Positions 3,803-29,991 of a DNA stretch of 32,940 nucleotides are shown here, piece after piece. The stretch is from NCBI GenBank assembly GCA_905182905.1, contig CAJJDH010000073.1, forward strand, positions 1 to 32,940. The letters are read 5' to 3'. The notes under the pieces are model-generated. The model saw nothing but the letters and a program-made list of their open reading frames with translations, did not search any database and was not told the DNA's origin. The position numbers and the translations under genes were made by a program. Positions within the stretch are counted from its first letter, which is position 1; every line of letters starts with the position of its first letter. Source of the DNA: a marine gamma proteobacterium HTCC2089 (GTDB lineage Bacteria; Pseudomonadota; Gammaproteobacteria; Pseudomonadales; Azotimanducaceae).

Positions 3803-3828
3803 AGACAATACGAATCGTCTCGTATAAT
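3803..3828 (+). promoter_or_regulatory. Promoter with overlapping inverted repeat (candidate operator)
   Basis: A perfect -10 hexamer TATAAT lies at 3823-3828, with a weak -35 (TAGACA or CTAGAC) 15-16 bp upstream. The inverted repeat ATACGA (3808-3813) / TCGTAT (3820-3825) runs into the -10 box, and an outer AGAC (3803-3806) / GTCT (3817-3820) overlaps it. A protein bound here would block polymerase. Because the -10 covers the ATG at 3827, translation must start downstream, at 3851 or 3857. The cognate regulator is not in the immediate neighbourhood. Confidence 0.5.
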
Positions 3829-3850
3829 GTTTTCACAATTACAAAGCAGA

Positions 3851-4327
3851 ATGACTATGAAACTGAAAGTTAATGGTGTCGAGCGTGAGGTGGAAGCGGA
3901 TTGGCGTGATGAAAGCCTTCTCACTGTTTTACGTGAGCATTTAGATCTGCCGGGCACTCGCTTTAGCTGCGGTATTGGTCAATGTGGCACGTGTGTAGTT
4001 CATATCAACGGCGCACCGATTAGCAGTTGCCTGGTGCCCATTAAAGACGTTGCTGGTAAAGATATTTTGACTATCGAAGGACTTGTTGCGCAGGACGGTT
4101 CTTTGCACCCACTGCAGCAGGCATGGATTGACGAAAGCGTTCCCCAATGTGGCTACTGTCAGTCTGGTCAGATCATGCAGGCGCTGGCGCTGTTAAAAGA
4201 AAATACTAATCCAAACGATGCTGATATAGACAATGCTATGAAAGGTAATCTATGTCGTTGTGGCACTTACGATCGAATCAGAAAATCTATCAAAAGAGCG
4301 GCAATTGTTATGGGTCAGGTGCGCTAA
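3851..4327 (+). CDS. [2Fe-2S] subunit of molybdenum hydroxylase (isoquinoline 1-oxidoreductase alpha type)
   Basis: A small iron-sulfur subunit of the xanthine dehydrogenase/aldehyde oxidase family, about 158 residues from this start and close to the usual ~150. It carries the plant-type cluster motif (SCGIGQCGTC followed by SSC) and the second cluster motif CGYCQSGQIM...GNLCRCGTY, and so passes electrons away from the molybdenum centre of its partner. I chose the start at 3851 (3857 is equally possible, giving MKLKVNG) because an upstream ATG at 3827 lies inside the -10 promoter box. The stop codon overlaps the start of the large-subunit gene (TAATG), indicating translational coupling. No FAD-binding medium subunit is present, which points to the two-subunit, cytochrome-linked type. 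Confidence 0.93.
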   Translation: MTMKLKVNGVEREVEADWRDESLLTVLREHLDLPGTRFSCGIGQCGTCVVHINGAPISSCLVPIKDVAGKDILTIEGLVAQDGSLHPLQQAWIDESVPQCGYCQSGQIMQALALLKENTNPNDADIDNAMKGNLCRCGTYDRIRKSIKRAAIVMGQVR

Positions 4328-6513
4328 TGCCTCAGTTTTCTAGACGTAAATTTTTGCTCTCTACAGGTTGGGTCGCCGGTGGGGTAACTGCGCTTTATGC
4401 TCTGCGCAATAAGGCTGTGGCGGTAGCGCCGACTATTATTTTTCCGGACGCTGAGTCTGGAGCGGCGTGGATACAAATTAAGGCTAACGGCACTTGTCAC
4501 ATGTTTTTTCCGAGGGTAGACATGGGCCAAAATGCCAACACCGGCCTCGCTCAGATTGTTGCTGAGGAACTAAATGTCGAGGTAGAAGACATTGATGCTG
4601 CGCGCCCGAGCACCAGTGATGTCCCACCTTTAGCAGTTACAGCGGGCAGTATGTCTTTAACCGCCTACTCGCGCCCTATTGCAATTGCTGCGGCTACATT
4701 GCGCGAAACTATGCGAGAACGTGCTGCGAGCAAACTTGGTTTACCACTTGCTGATATCTTAGATGACATAGGCGGCTTTCGGGCGGCGGAGGGACCTAGG
4801 CTCAGTTATGCTGAGTTGGTAGATAACACCAGTTCCATGGTTGAATTTGACGGCAATAGACCTGCACCTCTCCTTTATACTTTTGATGCCCAGCGTGACA
4901 AGCGACAAGTAGGGCGTGCGGTAAAACCATTGGGTATTCGTGATCTTGTGACCGGAGCCCCTGTCTATACTGCGGATATTCCTGTTGCCGGCATTTTGTA
5001 TGGCCGCGCTATTCAGCCTCCGGTTCGTAACGCGCGTATTTCTAGCCTCGAGACAGGTGATGTGGCGAATGTTGCTGGCTTTATTCAATTGGTGCGAGAA
5101 GACGAATTCGTTGGTGTGGTGTGCAAAACACCGGGCGCAGTAGACGCAGCAATGACCCAAATCAAAGTCACATGGGACCTTCAACAACCTATAGCCCAGG
5201 AAGAAATCGATAGGTTAGTTGATGTCGATGCAGCAATGGCCAAAGGTGATTTGGAGCATATTCTGCAAGATGAGGCTCACCGCAAAGACATTGATTGGGA
5301 TATTGATCTACGTTTTGACGTTCAGGTGCAAAGTCATGCTGCTCAAGAACCGCGTGCAGCAATTGCCCGTTTTGATCAATTCAGCCGGCTAGAAATTTGG
5401 ACCGGGACACAAGACCCATTTGGCATGAAACGTTTTGCCGCTATGGATACTGGGTTGTCCGAAGACGCGGTAGTAGTTTACCCCCAACGCCTCGGCGGCG
5501 GATTTGGTGGTCGCGAGCATTACGAGGTTGAACGCGACGCCGTACGACTTGCGCGGGCGGTAAAGCAACCAGTGAAAGTACAGTGGACTCGCAAGGATGA
5601 ATTTACCGCGAGCCGCAGTCGACCTGCCTCTGCGCATAGGTTACGTATAGCAGTTGATGAGGTAGGTAATTTGTCTGATTGGTGGTATGGCTATATTTCT
5701 GGTCACGTTGTTTTTGCCCGTGAAAGATTGCCTGGTTGGTTGTTGCCAGTGGCGCGCTTGGCGGATGATATGGGAGTGGTTAAAGGCGCAATTTCACCCT
5801 ATGGTGCGCCTCATCAACGTGTGGAATACAACGATGTTGATCTTCCTATTGATCTTGGTGTGTGGCGCTCCTTAAATGGCGCACCGGCTATTTTTGCCAT
5901 TGAATCTGCCATGGATGAGCTAGCTGTGCGGCAAGGTATAGATGCAGTTGATTTTAAGATTGCTCAAATGCACAGCGCACATCCACGTTTGCAGAATTGT
6001 TTAGAACGTGTGCGTGCCTTGAGTGCACTGAAAGCTTTGCCTGAAGGGGCGGGTTATGGTCGTGGCTTTGCCAGCGGTATATATGATGGCCGTTGTTATG
6101 TAGCAATTAGTGCTGATGTTTATGTCGATGCACAGGCCAAACAAATCAAGATACTGCATATGTGCTGTGCCCAGGATGTGGGGATGGCTGTCAATCCTGG
6201 CCAATTACGTGCGCAGGTGGAAAGCAACTTGGTATGGAGTATTGGCATGGCGCTGCTTGAACGCTTTGAGGTTGCTGATAATGCAATTCGAAGCTCGAAT
6301 TTTGATAACTACAAGATTCCACGTATGGATGATATGCCAAGCTTGGATATTGAAATTATTGATCAGCCTACCATGCCACCGACTGGTGCCGGCGAAGTGG
6401 CGTTGGTAGCGGGGCCTGCGGCCATAGCTAATGCCATTCGCCGCGCTAGCGGTTTTCGTGCTCTGCGCCTGCCAATTTCCTTCGCGGATATCACGGCTAA
6501 TTCTGCTGAGTAA
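4327..6513 (+). CDS. Molybdopterin-binding large subunit, IorB-like, Tat-exported
   Basis: A 728-residue molybdopterin cytosine dinucleotide subunit of the isoquinoline 1-oxidoreductase beta / aldehyde dehydrogenase family. It hydroxylates N-heterocycles or aldehydes with water-derived oxygen. The N-terminus SRRKFLLSTG...AGG is a twin-arginine signal, so the complex is folded in the cytoplasm and exported to the periplasm, carrying its small subunit along. Molybdopterin motif GGGFGGR is at 390-396. The expected catalytic glutamate is E690 in PPTGAGE, followed by PAAIANAI. The frame is open 75 bp further upstream, but the start at 4327 overlaps the previous stop and begins just before the Tat signal. 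The substrate is unknown, and family members often have wide specificity. Confidence 0.93.
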   Translation: MPQFSRRKFLLSTGWVAGGVTALYALRNKAVAVAPTIIFPDAESGAAWIQIKANGTCHMFFPRVDMGQNANTGLAQIVAEELNVEVEDIDAARPSTSDVPPLAVTAGSMSLTAYSRPIAIAAATLRETMRERAASKLGLPLADILDDIGGFRAAEGPRLSYAELVDNTSSMVEFDGNRPAPLLYTFDAQRDKRQVGRAVKPLGIRDLVTGAPVYTADIPVAGILYGRAIQPPVRNARISSLETGDVANVAGFIQLVREDEFVGVVCKTPGAVDAAMTQIKVTWDLQQPIAQEEIDRLVDVDAAMAKGDLEHILQDEAHRKDIDWDIDLRFDVQVQSHAAQEPRAAIARFDQFSRLEIWTGTQDPFGMKRFAAMDTGLSEDAVVVYPQRLGGGFGGREHYEVERDAVRLARAVKQPVKVQWTRKDEFTASRSRPASAHRLRIAVDEVGNLSDWWYGYISGHVVFARERLPGWLLPVARLADDMGVVKGAISPYGAPHQRVEYNDVDLPIDLGVWRSLNGAPAIFAIESAMDELAVRQGIDAVDFKIAQMHSAHPRLQNCLERVRALSALKALPEGAGYGRGFASGIYDGRCYVAISADVYVDAQAKQIKILHMCCAQDVGMAVNPGQLRAQVESNLVWSIGMALLERFEVADNAIRSSNFDNYKIPRMDDMPSLDIEIIDQPTMPPTGAGEVALVAGPAAIANAIRRASGFRALRLPISFADITANSAE

Positions 6514-12182: not shown

Positions 12183-12226
12183 ACTAACGAGGCGGGCTTG
12201 ATGCCCGCCACATTTGTTAGTTTTTT
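12183..12226. terminator. Two-tier intrinsic terminator between convergent genes
   Basis: An inner GC-rich stem GGCGGGC (12191-12197) / GCCCGCC (12203-12209) with loop TTGAT is flanked by an outer repeat ACTAAC (12183-12188) / GTTAGT (12216-12221), followed by a T run to 12226. It terminates the PsiE-like gene on the plus strand and overlaps the stop codon of the minus-strand selenoprotein gene, so it may act in both directions. Confidence 0.85.
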
Positions 12227-13356
12227 ATATCCAATGGCCGATAGTAGTCAGTGCCTGTGCGCTCAAAATTGCTGCGCATAGCTCTGAACTGTTCGCCTGC
12301 TGAACCTTCTTCCGTCAGTGTTAGGTTCTGTCGAATAAAGTTAACACTATCGGGGTTTAGTGCCCTTGCAACCTCCCAGTACTGATCGGCCTTTACATCT
12401 TGGCCGTGCCTGCGGAATAAGTTACCCAGACAAAAAGCCGCATCAGCTTGCTCTTGCTCTTTGGAGTGTTGGCGGATGTTGCCAGCTACTGTTGCGGCAG
12501 ATTGCACATGCACGCTGTCCGCGCCGTTGGCTACCCAGTCTTTTAGTGCCGGTTCGTACACATCATTACCAAAGGTAATGGCTTGCTCACCTTCACCAAT
12601 CGCATGAATTTTTGCATAGGTGCCTTCATCTATTCTGACGATACGTCCTTCTTCATCGATCCATGCCGCTGAAGGCACATTGACGAAGTTAAAGGCGCTA
12701 CTGATTTGGTGATTTTCATCTACAACCTGAATATAGGTTGGATTTGCTGCATCAAAAATGGGCCCTGCAGCCGCTTCACCGCCAGTGTCTTGGGCGGCGC
12801 AAATGATGACAAAGTCAGGATCATTAATTTCTTCGTATATACGTTGCCACACGGGCACGTCAAGAAAACATCCTCACCACGATGACCAGGTAACGATTAA
12901 CGCTTTTTTACCTTTAAGGTCAGCCATGCGCACCACATTGCCTTGGCGATCTGTGACTTCAATGTCCGGTGCCATGGCGTTGAGCATCATGTTGTCACGT
13001 TTCACCGGAATTTCCGCAAAACTCCACACACCTGCTTCCTGATCAGCAACGTAGGTTTGCTCGAGTAAATCCGCAAAGCCAGTGAGGTTAAACCACTGTC
13101 GCCCATCTTGCTCAAGCAATAACTGTTCATTCAATGGAATGCAAAGATCGTCTAAGCAAGCACCTTCAGGCTTAATTACGAAGCCGTTGACCTGCTGGAG
13201 GTCTTTTGGGTTGATTAGCAATTCACTGCCGCCGCCTGTTTCTGACAAGGTTATGGTTTTGCCCTGATACAGTATTGTGGCACTGCCTTGGGGGTGAATT
13301 TCTTTGGCTTCAAAAGGGCTTCGAAGCTCTGGGTAGGCCATGAAGGCTTTTGCCAT
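12217..13356 (-). CDS. Redoxin-fold selenoprotein with in-frame TGA (Sec161)
   Basis: I read this as one 379-residue gene in which the TGA at 12876-12874 encodes selenocysteine at residue 161. The frame runs without shift through the TGA. Upstream is the beginning of an AhpC/TSA-type redoxin domain (APDIEVTDRQGN, then GKKALIVTWSSW). Downstream is its continuation (GCFLDVPVWQR), with strands such as FVIICAAQD and the cis-proline region FNVPSAAWIDEEG. The TGA sits exactly where the nucleophilic cysteine of a WxxWC motif belongs, giving W-Sec-G-C163. Residues 1-120 form an extra domain with C67-x4-C72 (NGFVIKPEGAC), and the last ~80 residues look TPR-like helical. A SECIS-type hairpin follows the TGA. 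Likely a thiol/peroxide redox enzyme. The alternatives are a TGC/TGT sequencing error or a pseudogene. Confidence 0.85.
12828..12867 (-). promoter_or_regulatory. Candidate bacterial SECIS hairpin
   Basis: On the minus strand, 20 nt after the UGA lies the apical loop CGUGU (12853-12849). It closes stem ACGUGCC (12860-12854) / GGC-A-ACGU (12848-12841), with one bulged A. A lower stem UUUCUU (12867-12862) / AAGAAA (12833-12828) can form across an internal loop. A G within the first two loop bases and a 16-37 nt distance from UGA are the known requirements for SelB-recognised bacterial SECIS elements, and both are met. The element lies inside the coding sequence, as is normal in bacteria. Confidence 0.7.
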
Positions 13357-13480
13357 TGGGTACTCCTCTTTCTTGTTCGAACTTGTCAGATAGTACGTTA
13401 TTCAACCCAGTTGTGCGCAGAAACTAGCAAGTATTGGGTTTTGCTTTCCTCACGAGGCTATCCCTCGTTAAACTAAAGAC

Positions 13481-28176: not shown

Positions 28177-29097
28177 TTAGCCGCTGCAACTACCGCCACC
28201 CAAAACACAGAACTTGGCGCAGTGGGGGTGGTTGAGGTGGACGCTTTTGGCGGCTTGTTTAAGCGTGGTGCCCAAATTAAATTGCTCGTCGTAGGCCAGT
28301 AGCGTACACGCCATGACTGATGGCTGCTCCTGATCCTTGTGTTTGACCACCATGCGTGAGGTGGCACACATCATATCGTTGGCGGCAACACCCAGAATAT
28401 TCCAACAATCAGTGGTGATCTCTGGTACGTGGGTATGGTCATTCATTTCAGGGAACAAAGTCAGTTGCGTGGCATCCAGTGCGTCGACACAAATTTTTTG
28501 TTGCTGGAATAAGACGGCAAAACCTTTGCGCAGTTCATCTTCGCCCTCGCCCCAGCGGGTGCGCCCGGCAATATCTATTTGGAACTTGTTCCGAGACAGC
28601 CACCTTAACCCTTTGATCATGGGCGCCCATGAATCTGGCCCGCGTTCTTCTTCGTGCAGAGTTTGCTTGAAGTGGTCAACGGAGACCCTAATTGTCATAG
28701 CCTTGCCGTAGGTTTTTAGCAGATCTAAAAGCCCAGCTTGAATCCTAGGTCGCATCATAGGTCGCATGGCATTGGTCAGTACCAATAGCTTAAAGCCACG
28801 ACTCAGACACGCCTGCATAATGGCTAAGATCTCAGGATTCATAAATGGCTCACCGCCGGTAATGCCTATTTCCTGCGTGCCAAGGCCATTTTGCTGGATC
28901 TCATTTAAGTAGGGGAGCGCTTCTTCGAGAGTCAAATAAGACAAGCGATCATTGCTGGGTGTGGATTCGATATAACAGTTCTCGCACGCTAAATTGCACA
29001 GCGTGCCGGTGTTCAACCACAGGGTCTTCAGTTCGTGTAAATCCACATGAGCACGTTGGCTACCATCGTCAGTGATATAGGGGTCGGCAAATTTCAT
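28177..29097 (-). CDS. Radical SAM protein with cysteine-rich C-terminal region
   Basis: A 306-residue radical SAM enzyme. The [4Fe-4S]-SAM motif is C34-x3-C38-x2-C41 (CNLACENC) and the glycine motif is GITGGEPF (78-85). The C-terminal third has six more cysteines: C231, C244, C264, C293, C297 and C304. The last three lie in HCAKFCVLGGGSCSG at the very end. This pattern suggests one SPASM/twitch-type auxiliary iron-sulfur cluster. Such enzymes often modify peptides or maturate other enzymes, but no precursor peptide or partner is evident next to it. The neighbours are mtnP (convergent) and an unknown membrane protein. Family is certain, function unknown. Confidence 0.88.
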   Translation of the reverse strand: MKFADPYITDDGSQRAHVDLHELKTLWLNTGTLCNLACENCYIESTPSNDRLSYLTLEEALPYLNEIQQNGLGTQEIGITGGEPFMNPEILAIMQACLSRGFKLLVLTNAMRPMMRPRIQAGLLDLLKTYGKAMTIRVSVDHFKQTLHEEERGPDSWAPMIKGLRWLSRNKFQIDIAGRTRWGEGEDELRKGFAVLFQQQKICVDALDATQLTLFPEMNDHTHVPEITTDCWNILGVAANDMMCATSRMVVKHKDQEQPSVMACTLLAYDEQFNLGTTLKQAAKSVHLNHPHCAKFCVLGGGSCSG

Positions 29098-29415: not shown

Positions 29416-29991
29416 ATGGATTGGTTAATGAATATTTTAGTGAAAATAGTAGTAATTGTTTTGGGCATTTTGCTAGTGCCCACTGCTGCGGTGTTAACTG
29501 CGGCTGCAAAAATGAGTTCCGCAGATGGCCCAAACAGGGTTTTTTCTGGTGGGCCTTTAGTGTCCGGAGAGTTATACGCAGGTGCAGAGCCAGATTGGGG
29601 CTTTTTAGAGCAAGTGCCTACGGTGGAATTACAGCTACTCAACCCGCCTGAGTCGCGGCGTATATGGGTAGCCGAAGTGGAAGGTAAAATGTACGTGTGG
29701 TCAGGCTATATGAATTCATTTTTCGGCAAGATCTGGAAAACTTGGCCAGGGCAGGCGGTGGCTGACGGGCGCGCGGTTGTGCGTATAGAAGGGGTTCGTT
29801 ATGAACGCCAGCTCAAGCGTATTCAAACTGGAGATGTATTAGATGCAATAGCTGCCACCATTAGCGCTAAGTATCCTTCTCGAGCGACTCGCGCAGTTAT
29901 CGAGTCGGGTGATCTTTGGATATTTGAAGTTGCACCCCGCGACCCAGAAGTAGCAATTGAGGAAGTTAAGTCAGTAGGAGAAGCTTCGTGA
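29416..29991 (+). CDS. Membrane-anchored protein of unknown function
   Basis: A 191-residue protein with an N-terminal membrane anchor (ILVKIVVIVLGILLVPTAAVLTAAA) and a soluble domain outside the membrane. The central part (VELQLLNPPESRRIWVAEVEGKMYVWSGYM, then RAVVRIEGVRYERQL) recalls the strands of FMN-binding split-barrel (pyridoxamine oxidase-like) proteins, but I cannot assign a family with confidence and no flavin motif is clear. Its final codons overlap the start of the miniprotein gene (GTGA), and AGGAG inside the 3' end serves as that gene's ribosome binding site. Confidence 0.75.
   Translation: MDWLMNILVKIVVIVLGILLVPTAAVLTAAAKMSSADGPNRVFSGGPLVSGELYAGAEPDWGFLEQVPTVELQLLNPPESRRIWVAEVEGKMYVWSGYMNSFFGKIWKTWPGQAVADGRAVVRIEGVRYERQLKRIQTGDVLDAIAATISAKYPSRATRAVIESGDLWIFEVAPRDPEVAIEEVKSVGEAS

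Follow-up and report, generated by a model that had tools for sequence, protein, structure and literature searches.

Does the TGA codon that separates two short open reading frames (ORFs) on the minus strand of this DNA end one gene, or is it read as selenocysteine (Sec) within a longer one? We analyzed the whole 32,940-nucleotide stretch (here called the window), in which ORFs 12874-13356 and 12217-12858 are both present on the minus strand in a common frame. The TGA at 12876-12874 is the sole stop between them and is followed by five codons and then a GTG at 12858, in agreement with the first-pass annotation, which had described two ORFs in one frame split by a TGA and five codons. The complete frame spans 380 codons, from the ATG at 13356 to the TAA at 12217, and a Shine-Dalgarno-like AGAGGAG is apparent by inspection 6 nt upstream of the ATG (13363-13369, minus strand). 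Translation through the TGA gives 379 residues in which position 161 (12874-12876, minus strand) falls within WSSW-x-GC, confirming the active site originally read as WSSW-TGA-GC.

A scan of public genome contigs recovered 19 relatives with 68-84% identity, and the codon aligned with position 161 is TGA in every one of them. The matched stretch is free of a second stop in 18 of the 19; in the exception (L025, 6001-7125), the stretch past residue 184 is scrambled and contains an in-frame TAG, in a gene that is otherwise intact. This scrambled segment is probably a local assembly fault, and because of it L025 was left out of the alignment (A1), the codon scan, and the tree. Among 19 rows, with the window's gene included and L025 left out, pairwise differences at codon positions 1, 2, and 3 are 0.226, 0.154, and 0.562 before the TGA and 0.184, 0.116, and 0.556 after it. 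This pattern indicates that both halves are translated and evolve as coding sequence, and that the half downstream of the TGA, judged by its substitutions, is under purifying selection.

When 390 genomes of the order were searched with a profile, 17 matches exceeded 100 bits, spread over 13 genomes that include the window's own. Twelve of these matches carry a single TGA; the other five are free of stops, and reading their loci revealed TGC at the active site in every case. A further TGA match (L094, 74 bits) has the active site WAPY-TGA-GC, and two others with WGSY-TGA-GC (L097 and L098) emerged when 369 genomes of the class were searched at E ≤ 1e-30. TGA is also present in paralogues as distant as 26% identity. 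In the long-form members whose active site was read, position 161 has only Cys or Sec codons (TGC or TGA). Two of the TGA loci are duplicates (L064 of L035 and L061 of L018), so that the 31 TGA rows of the hairpin comparison represent 30 distinct genes; L026 and L028 show 25 differences over 1,131 bases. In a tree of 27 rows, the window clade forms its own branch and the Cys forms make up two distinct branches, both of which join Sec forms; the starred branches force two changes of state. The Sec row joined to one of the Cys branches (L091) is long, and this join may be false. The clade is present in many Gammaproteobacteria, several of them from sea samples. One genome, given as 6% contaminated (G274), contains three different TGA members (L066, L091, and L092), each with the hairpin described below. 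Two genomes of the window's genus (G058 and G219) have selA and selB and gave no match to the gene itself in the profile search, which suggests an uneven distribution of the gene across the genus, with other selenoproteins presumably maintaining the machinery.

Just past the UGA, at 12841-12860 (minus strand), we predict a bacterial SECIS apical hairpin, ACGUGCC-CGUGU-GGC(A)ACGU, whose loop starts 20 nt past the UGA. The excess of synonymous-codon conservation peaks at codons 165-172, where the identical fraction is 0.858 observed versus 0.338 expected; this position ranks first of 367 scan windows (mean excess, 0.087; standard deviation, 0.073), and V167, P168, and V169 are each encoded by one codon only in every row retaining the residue. 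The window's hairpin has a 5-nt loop (CGUGU) with G in second position and 7 bp with one bulge, and a 23-nt piece folds at -7.5 kcal/mol. On all these points it agrees with the bacterial SECIS model as set out in the available text of a 2026 review, namely, a position 16-37 nt after the UGA, a loop of 3-9 nt with G in the first two positions, a stem of 4-16 bp, and a minimum free energy of -7.5 or lower (PMC13188914). The four top pairs form in all 31 TGA rows (30 distinct), compared with one of the five Cys rows, and by reading the hairpin is kept in L097 and L098 too. The sequence CCGTGTGG occurs in every TGA row read except L091, in which the loop differs (AGGUU), and in none of the five Cys rows. 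When the 3' partners are slid out of register, paired cells drop from 94.7% to 58.6% or less.

Even if Sec is inserted, this hairpin might not be the SECIS; the signal could lie elsewhere, or the codon constraint could have another cause. We consider this improbable, although the alternative draws on the weak folding z-scores of the hairpin (-1.32 in the window and -0.12 for a longer piece, neither exceptional against shuffles), on thin covariation (one pair is altered on both sides, and 176 of 500 shuffles reach the same), and on the one Cys row that keeps all four pairs. In four of eight rows tested, the 23-nt piece folds less stably than -7.5 kcal/mol, and the region also encodes a conserved peptide. 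Folding energy was dropped as an argument for a SECIS because the z-scores do not support it; the case was built on codon constraint and on the contrast between TGA and Cys rows. The alternative is countered by the coincidence of the constraint peak with the site that the published model predicts and by L091, which keeps the stem under its different loop. The hairpin thus stands as the candidate SECIS.

In the draft genome that contains the window (2.83 Mb in 125 contigs, with 94.4% completeness), selA and selB are adjacent on contig C113 and selD is on contig C61, all above curated cutoffs. Of the Sec genes that the first-pass annotation proposed to look for, selA, selB, and selD are thus present, and selC was not found in the draft with the Rfam tRNA-Sec model (150 of 202 candidates scored). 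Six Rfam matches lie below the cutoff and are ordinary tRNAs, assigned by ARAGORN to Trp, Cys, Ser, Arg, Ser, and Leu, and neither ARAGORN nor cmscan detected a tRNA-Sec on C113. In two relatives (L047 in G001, a genome also designated G198 and belonging to the window's genus, and L050 in G002), a dienelactone-hydrolase gene sits between selB and selC; of the 15 tRNA-Sec loci compared, the remaining 13, whose flanks span about 1.5 kb or less, showed no such gene next to selC. Contig C113 breaks off within the hydrolase gene adjoining selB (L037, 2-880, minus strand). By analogy with these two relatives, selC is expected just past the contig end, which suggests that it falls in an assembly gap. 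In G001, G005, and G019, selC starts 70 bases or fewer from a contig end.

Across genomes, selB was detected (E ≤ 1e-60) in 36 of 44 tested: in all eight TGA-form genomes from the order search, the window's own not counted; in all 13 genomes that lack a long-form match and belong to the same genus or family; and in 15 of the 19 genomes of the contig relatives, two of which are also among the TGA-form genomes of the order search. The four Cys-form (TGC) genomes show neither selB at this threshold nor selA (E ≤ 1e-20). The four relatives' genomes in which selB was not detected are G004, G007, G008, and G013, for which completeness is not given. We tested selA in 11 genomes; it is absent from the four Cys-form genomes and from G004, G007, and G013, and present in G003, G008, G058, and G219. 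A tRNA-Sec scores above the Rfam cutoff in 15 of the 19 relatives' genomes, and the sub-threshold matches in G007 and G008 were called tRNA-SeC with anticodon tca by ARAGORN, bringing the count to 17 of 19. No tRNA-Sec was found in G003 and G004, where the best matches are tRNA-Cys and tRNA-Ser. G004, whose completeness is not given, is the sole genome of the 19 without selA, selB, and tRNA-Sec, and it counts against a perfect pairing of the gene with the machinery. At one selD locus (L039, 304-2502, plus strand), SelD makes up the C-terminal portion of a protein of 732 residues, the other half of which resembles, by eye, a FAD/NAD oxidoreductase at the N-terminal end; a fusion of SelD with NADH dehydrogenase is mentioned in the available text of PMC2398784.

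Because the TGA is conserved, both halves are coding, the hairpin is constrained, selA, selB, and selD are present, and the Cys-form genomes were found without selA and selB, we predict that the gene at 12217-13356 (minus strand) very probably encodes a 379-residue selenoprotein with Sec at position 161. The Sec-Gly-Cys pair proposed by the first-pass annotation is accordingly supported, both by selB and by homologues with only TGA or TGC at this codon.

Three other accounts of the TGA fare far worse. One holds that translation stops there and restarts at GTG 12858, giving two genes or two proteins. The GTG does lie five codons past the TGA, and termination could compete with recoding, but a restart there would fall inside the thioredoxin fold and leave the product without the catalytic residue, the Cys relatives are single uninterrupted genes, and no well-placed Shine-Dalgarno sequence was seen by eye before this GTG; we regard two separate products as highly improbable. 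It is barely credible that TGA is reassigned genome-wide (to Trp, for example) or read through by a near-cognate tRNA. TGA is indeed rare as a terminator, ending one of the 20 window ORFs inspected, but reassignment is disfavored because it would scatter in-frame TGA over long frames, and the 18 of these ORFs with Pfam domains, all of them long, end in TAA or TAG and contain no in-frame TGA; moreover, the alternative residue at position 161 is Cys rather than Trp, selA and selB are present, and the hairpin is kept in TGA forms. The sole TGA-ending ORF (29416-29991) has no Pfam match, and the others end in TAA or TAG. There is, finally, a negligible chance that this is an ordinary WSSWCGC gene disrupted by a lone nonsense mutation or a sequencing error. 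A single substitution would turn TGC into TGA, and Cys relatives exist, but the TGA recurs in 19 of 19 relatives and in distant paralogues, the downstream half is under purifying selection, and the same TGA in other assemblies means that it is no base-call error of a single assembly; the first-pass annotation had already judged a lone nonsense mutation unlikely.

The predicted selenoprotein appears to have three parts. Its N-terminal domain (residues 1-118; 13003-13356, minus strand) has no Pfam match and no significant Foldseek match in the PDB. It contains a C67-x4-C72 motif found without variation in every row of A1 (19 rows) and of A3 (13 rows), and a C-x4-C is present by reading in L091, L092 to L095, L097, and L098. 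The middle of the protein, which includes Sec161-Gly-Cys163, is a ResA/TlpA-like redoxin domain (approximately residues 127-249; 12610-12978, minus strand), recognized by Pfam, NCBIfam, and structure matches; Redoxin scores 36.1 bits (cutoff, 26.6) and AhpC-TSA 32.2 bits (cutoff, 26). The C-terminal region (12217-12495, minus strand) is helical and TPR-like, with a weak TPR_2 match at residues 304-336 that lies below the Pfam cutoff. The view of the two halves as one continuous AhpC/TSA-like fold therefore stands with respect to the continuous frame but not the fold, which is redoxin-like only over approximately residues 127-249. A structure model has a mean pLDDT of 66.9 and falls below 50 around the active site (residues 158-172). 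By eye, no signal peptide was seen in the window protein, which is probably cytoplasmic on the evidence of its sequence. The N-termini of L067 and L068 look signal-peptide-like by eye and the window clade has no such N-terminus, so location probably differs between branches.

We also compared the C-terminal half and seven window neighbors with the available flanks of the 19 relatives, and no operon partner was found in this comparison. Matches to the SUI1 and AMP-binding neighbors, and a short match to an abhydrolase one, recur only in L019, and one ADH-like match, 38% identical, occurs in L034. In a plasmid search, no record among the 27 that match reaches 80% coverage of the query; the first plasmid match listed has 55% coverage and 26% identity. 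Elsewhere in the window are a radical SAM protein (28177-29097, minus strand) and a 2Fe-2S subunit adjacent to a molybdopterin-binding one (3827-6513, plus strand), neither with an evident link to the selenoprotein.

We propose that the UGA at codon 161 would be decoded as Sec by the ribosome with SelB and Sec-tRNA, directed by the hairpin just past the UGA and within the coding sequence. The product, combining the C-x4-C N-terminal domain, the ResA/TlpA-like thioredoxin domain with Sec161-Gly162-Cys163, and the TPR-like tail, would most likely act as a thiol-disulfide oxidoreductase or peroxide reductase. In this scheme, Sec161 would attack the substrate and Cys163 would resolve the bond as a selenenylsulfide, which may then be re-reduced by cellular thiols, possibly via the C-x4-C motif. 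Given the fold, the UxC pair, the Cys replacements, and general knowledge of thioredoxin folds, this chemistry, with attack by Sec161 and resolution by Cys163 in cytoplasmic thiol-disulfide or peroxide reduction, is a prediction that we somewhat favor. A more specific idea, that this is a separate selenoenzyme clade in which Sec-Gly-Cys exchanges electrons with the invariant C-x4-C of a domain that belongs to no described family, forming a self-contained redox relay and an activity new for thioredoxin-fold selenoproteins, is unlikely.

Standard annotation cuts this gene in two, and the catalytic residue is lost. Sec and Cys versions both exist, with Cys on two branches and selA and selB not found in the four Cys-form genomes; this makes the family a good natural series in which to examine what selenium contributes to a UxC site. 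The conserved C-x4-C domain, in turn, provides a concrete hypothesis for how the Sec-Cys pair may be recycled.

Among known systems, the best curated model is NF041054 (WAxxUGC_long, "ResA-like WAxxUGC motif-containing protein"; E = 1.7e-68), which residues 47-372 of the window protein match over positions 7-348 of its 354, the UGC site being shared. The model's motif is WAxx-UGC and the window's is WSSW-UGC, with Ser for Ala and agreement at W, U, G, and C. The window protein scores 231.5 bits against a cutoff of 300, and scores are 223-240 for L061 and L064 to L066, 229 for L067, 254 for L068, and 240 and 241 for the Cys forms L070 and L072. L071 (Cys) and L073 (WAPYUGC) score 546 and 479, respectively. 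With scores below the cutoff, the window clade falls outside this curated equivalog, and it is easily misannotated because it lies below the cutoff of the nearest NCBI model. The term "WAxxUGC" was not found in a literature search.

The thioredoxin fold is common to the window protein and the ResA/TlpA/DsbE proteins; ResA 2h19 is matched by Foldseek (E = 8.3e-8), and 3kcm (1.2e-11) and the ResA-type 4nmu (1e-9) are sequence relatives with solved structures (phmmer). ResA/TlpA proteins have a CxxC active site and carry a membrane anchor or signal peptide. Where ResA/TlpA/DsbE proteins have a CxxC pair, the window protein has UxC (UGC, 161-163), and it has extra N- and C-terminal regions. The peroxidatic motif of AhpC/TSA peroxiredoxins is TxxC. 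The window protein passes the Pfam cutoffs of this group without a TxxC-type peroxidatic motif, having WSSW-U-GC instead. In the available text of the 2026 review, the motif of Sec-containing peroxiredoxins is TxxU (PMC13188914). Considering the nearest curated models and structures, the protein is closer to ResA/TlpA than to AhpC, and the AhpC-like label of the first-pass annotation gives way to a ResA/TlpA-like one. The idea of a UGC-type selenoprotein is not new, given NF041054 and the UGC-containing selenoproteins already in print. In the text available from each source, a Global Ocean Sampling survey of 2008 reported 46 "Prx-like (UGC-containing)" sequences (PMC2398784), among which the window clade may or may not be represented, and the 2026 review lists a "UGC-containing TlpA disulfide reductase family protein" (PMC13188914). 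As far as these sources describe them, such UGC-containing Prx-like or TlpA-like selenoproteins, predicted in aquatic metagenomes, combine an AhpC-TSA/TlpA-type domain with UGC, a combination that the window protein shares.
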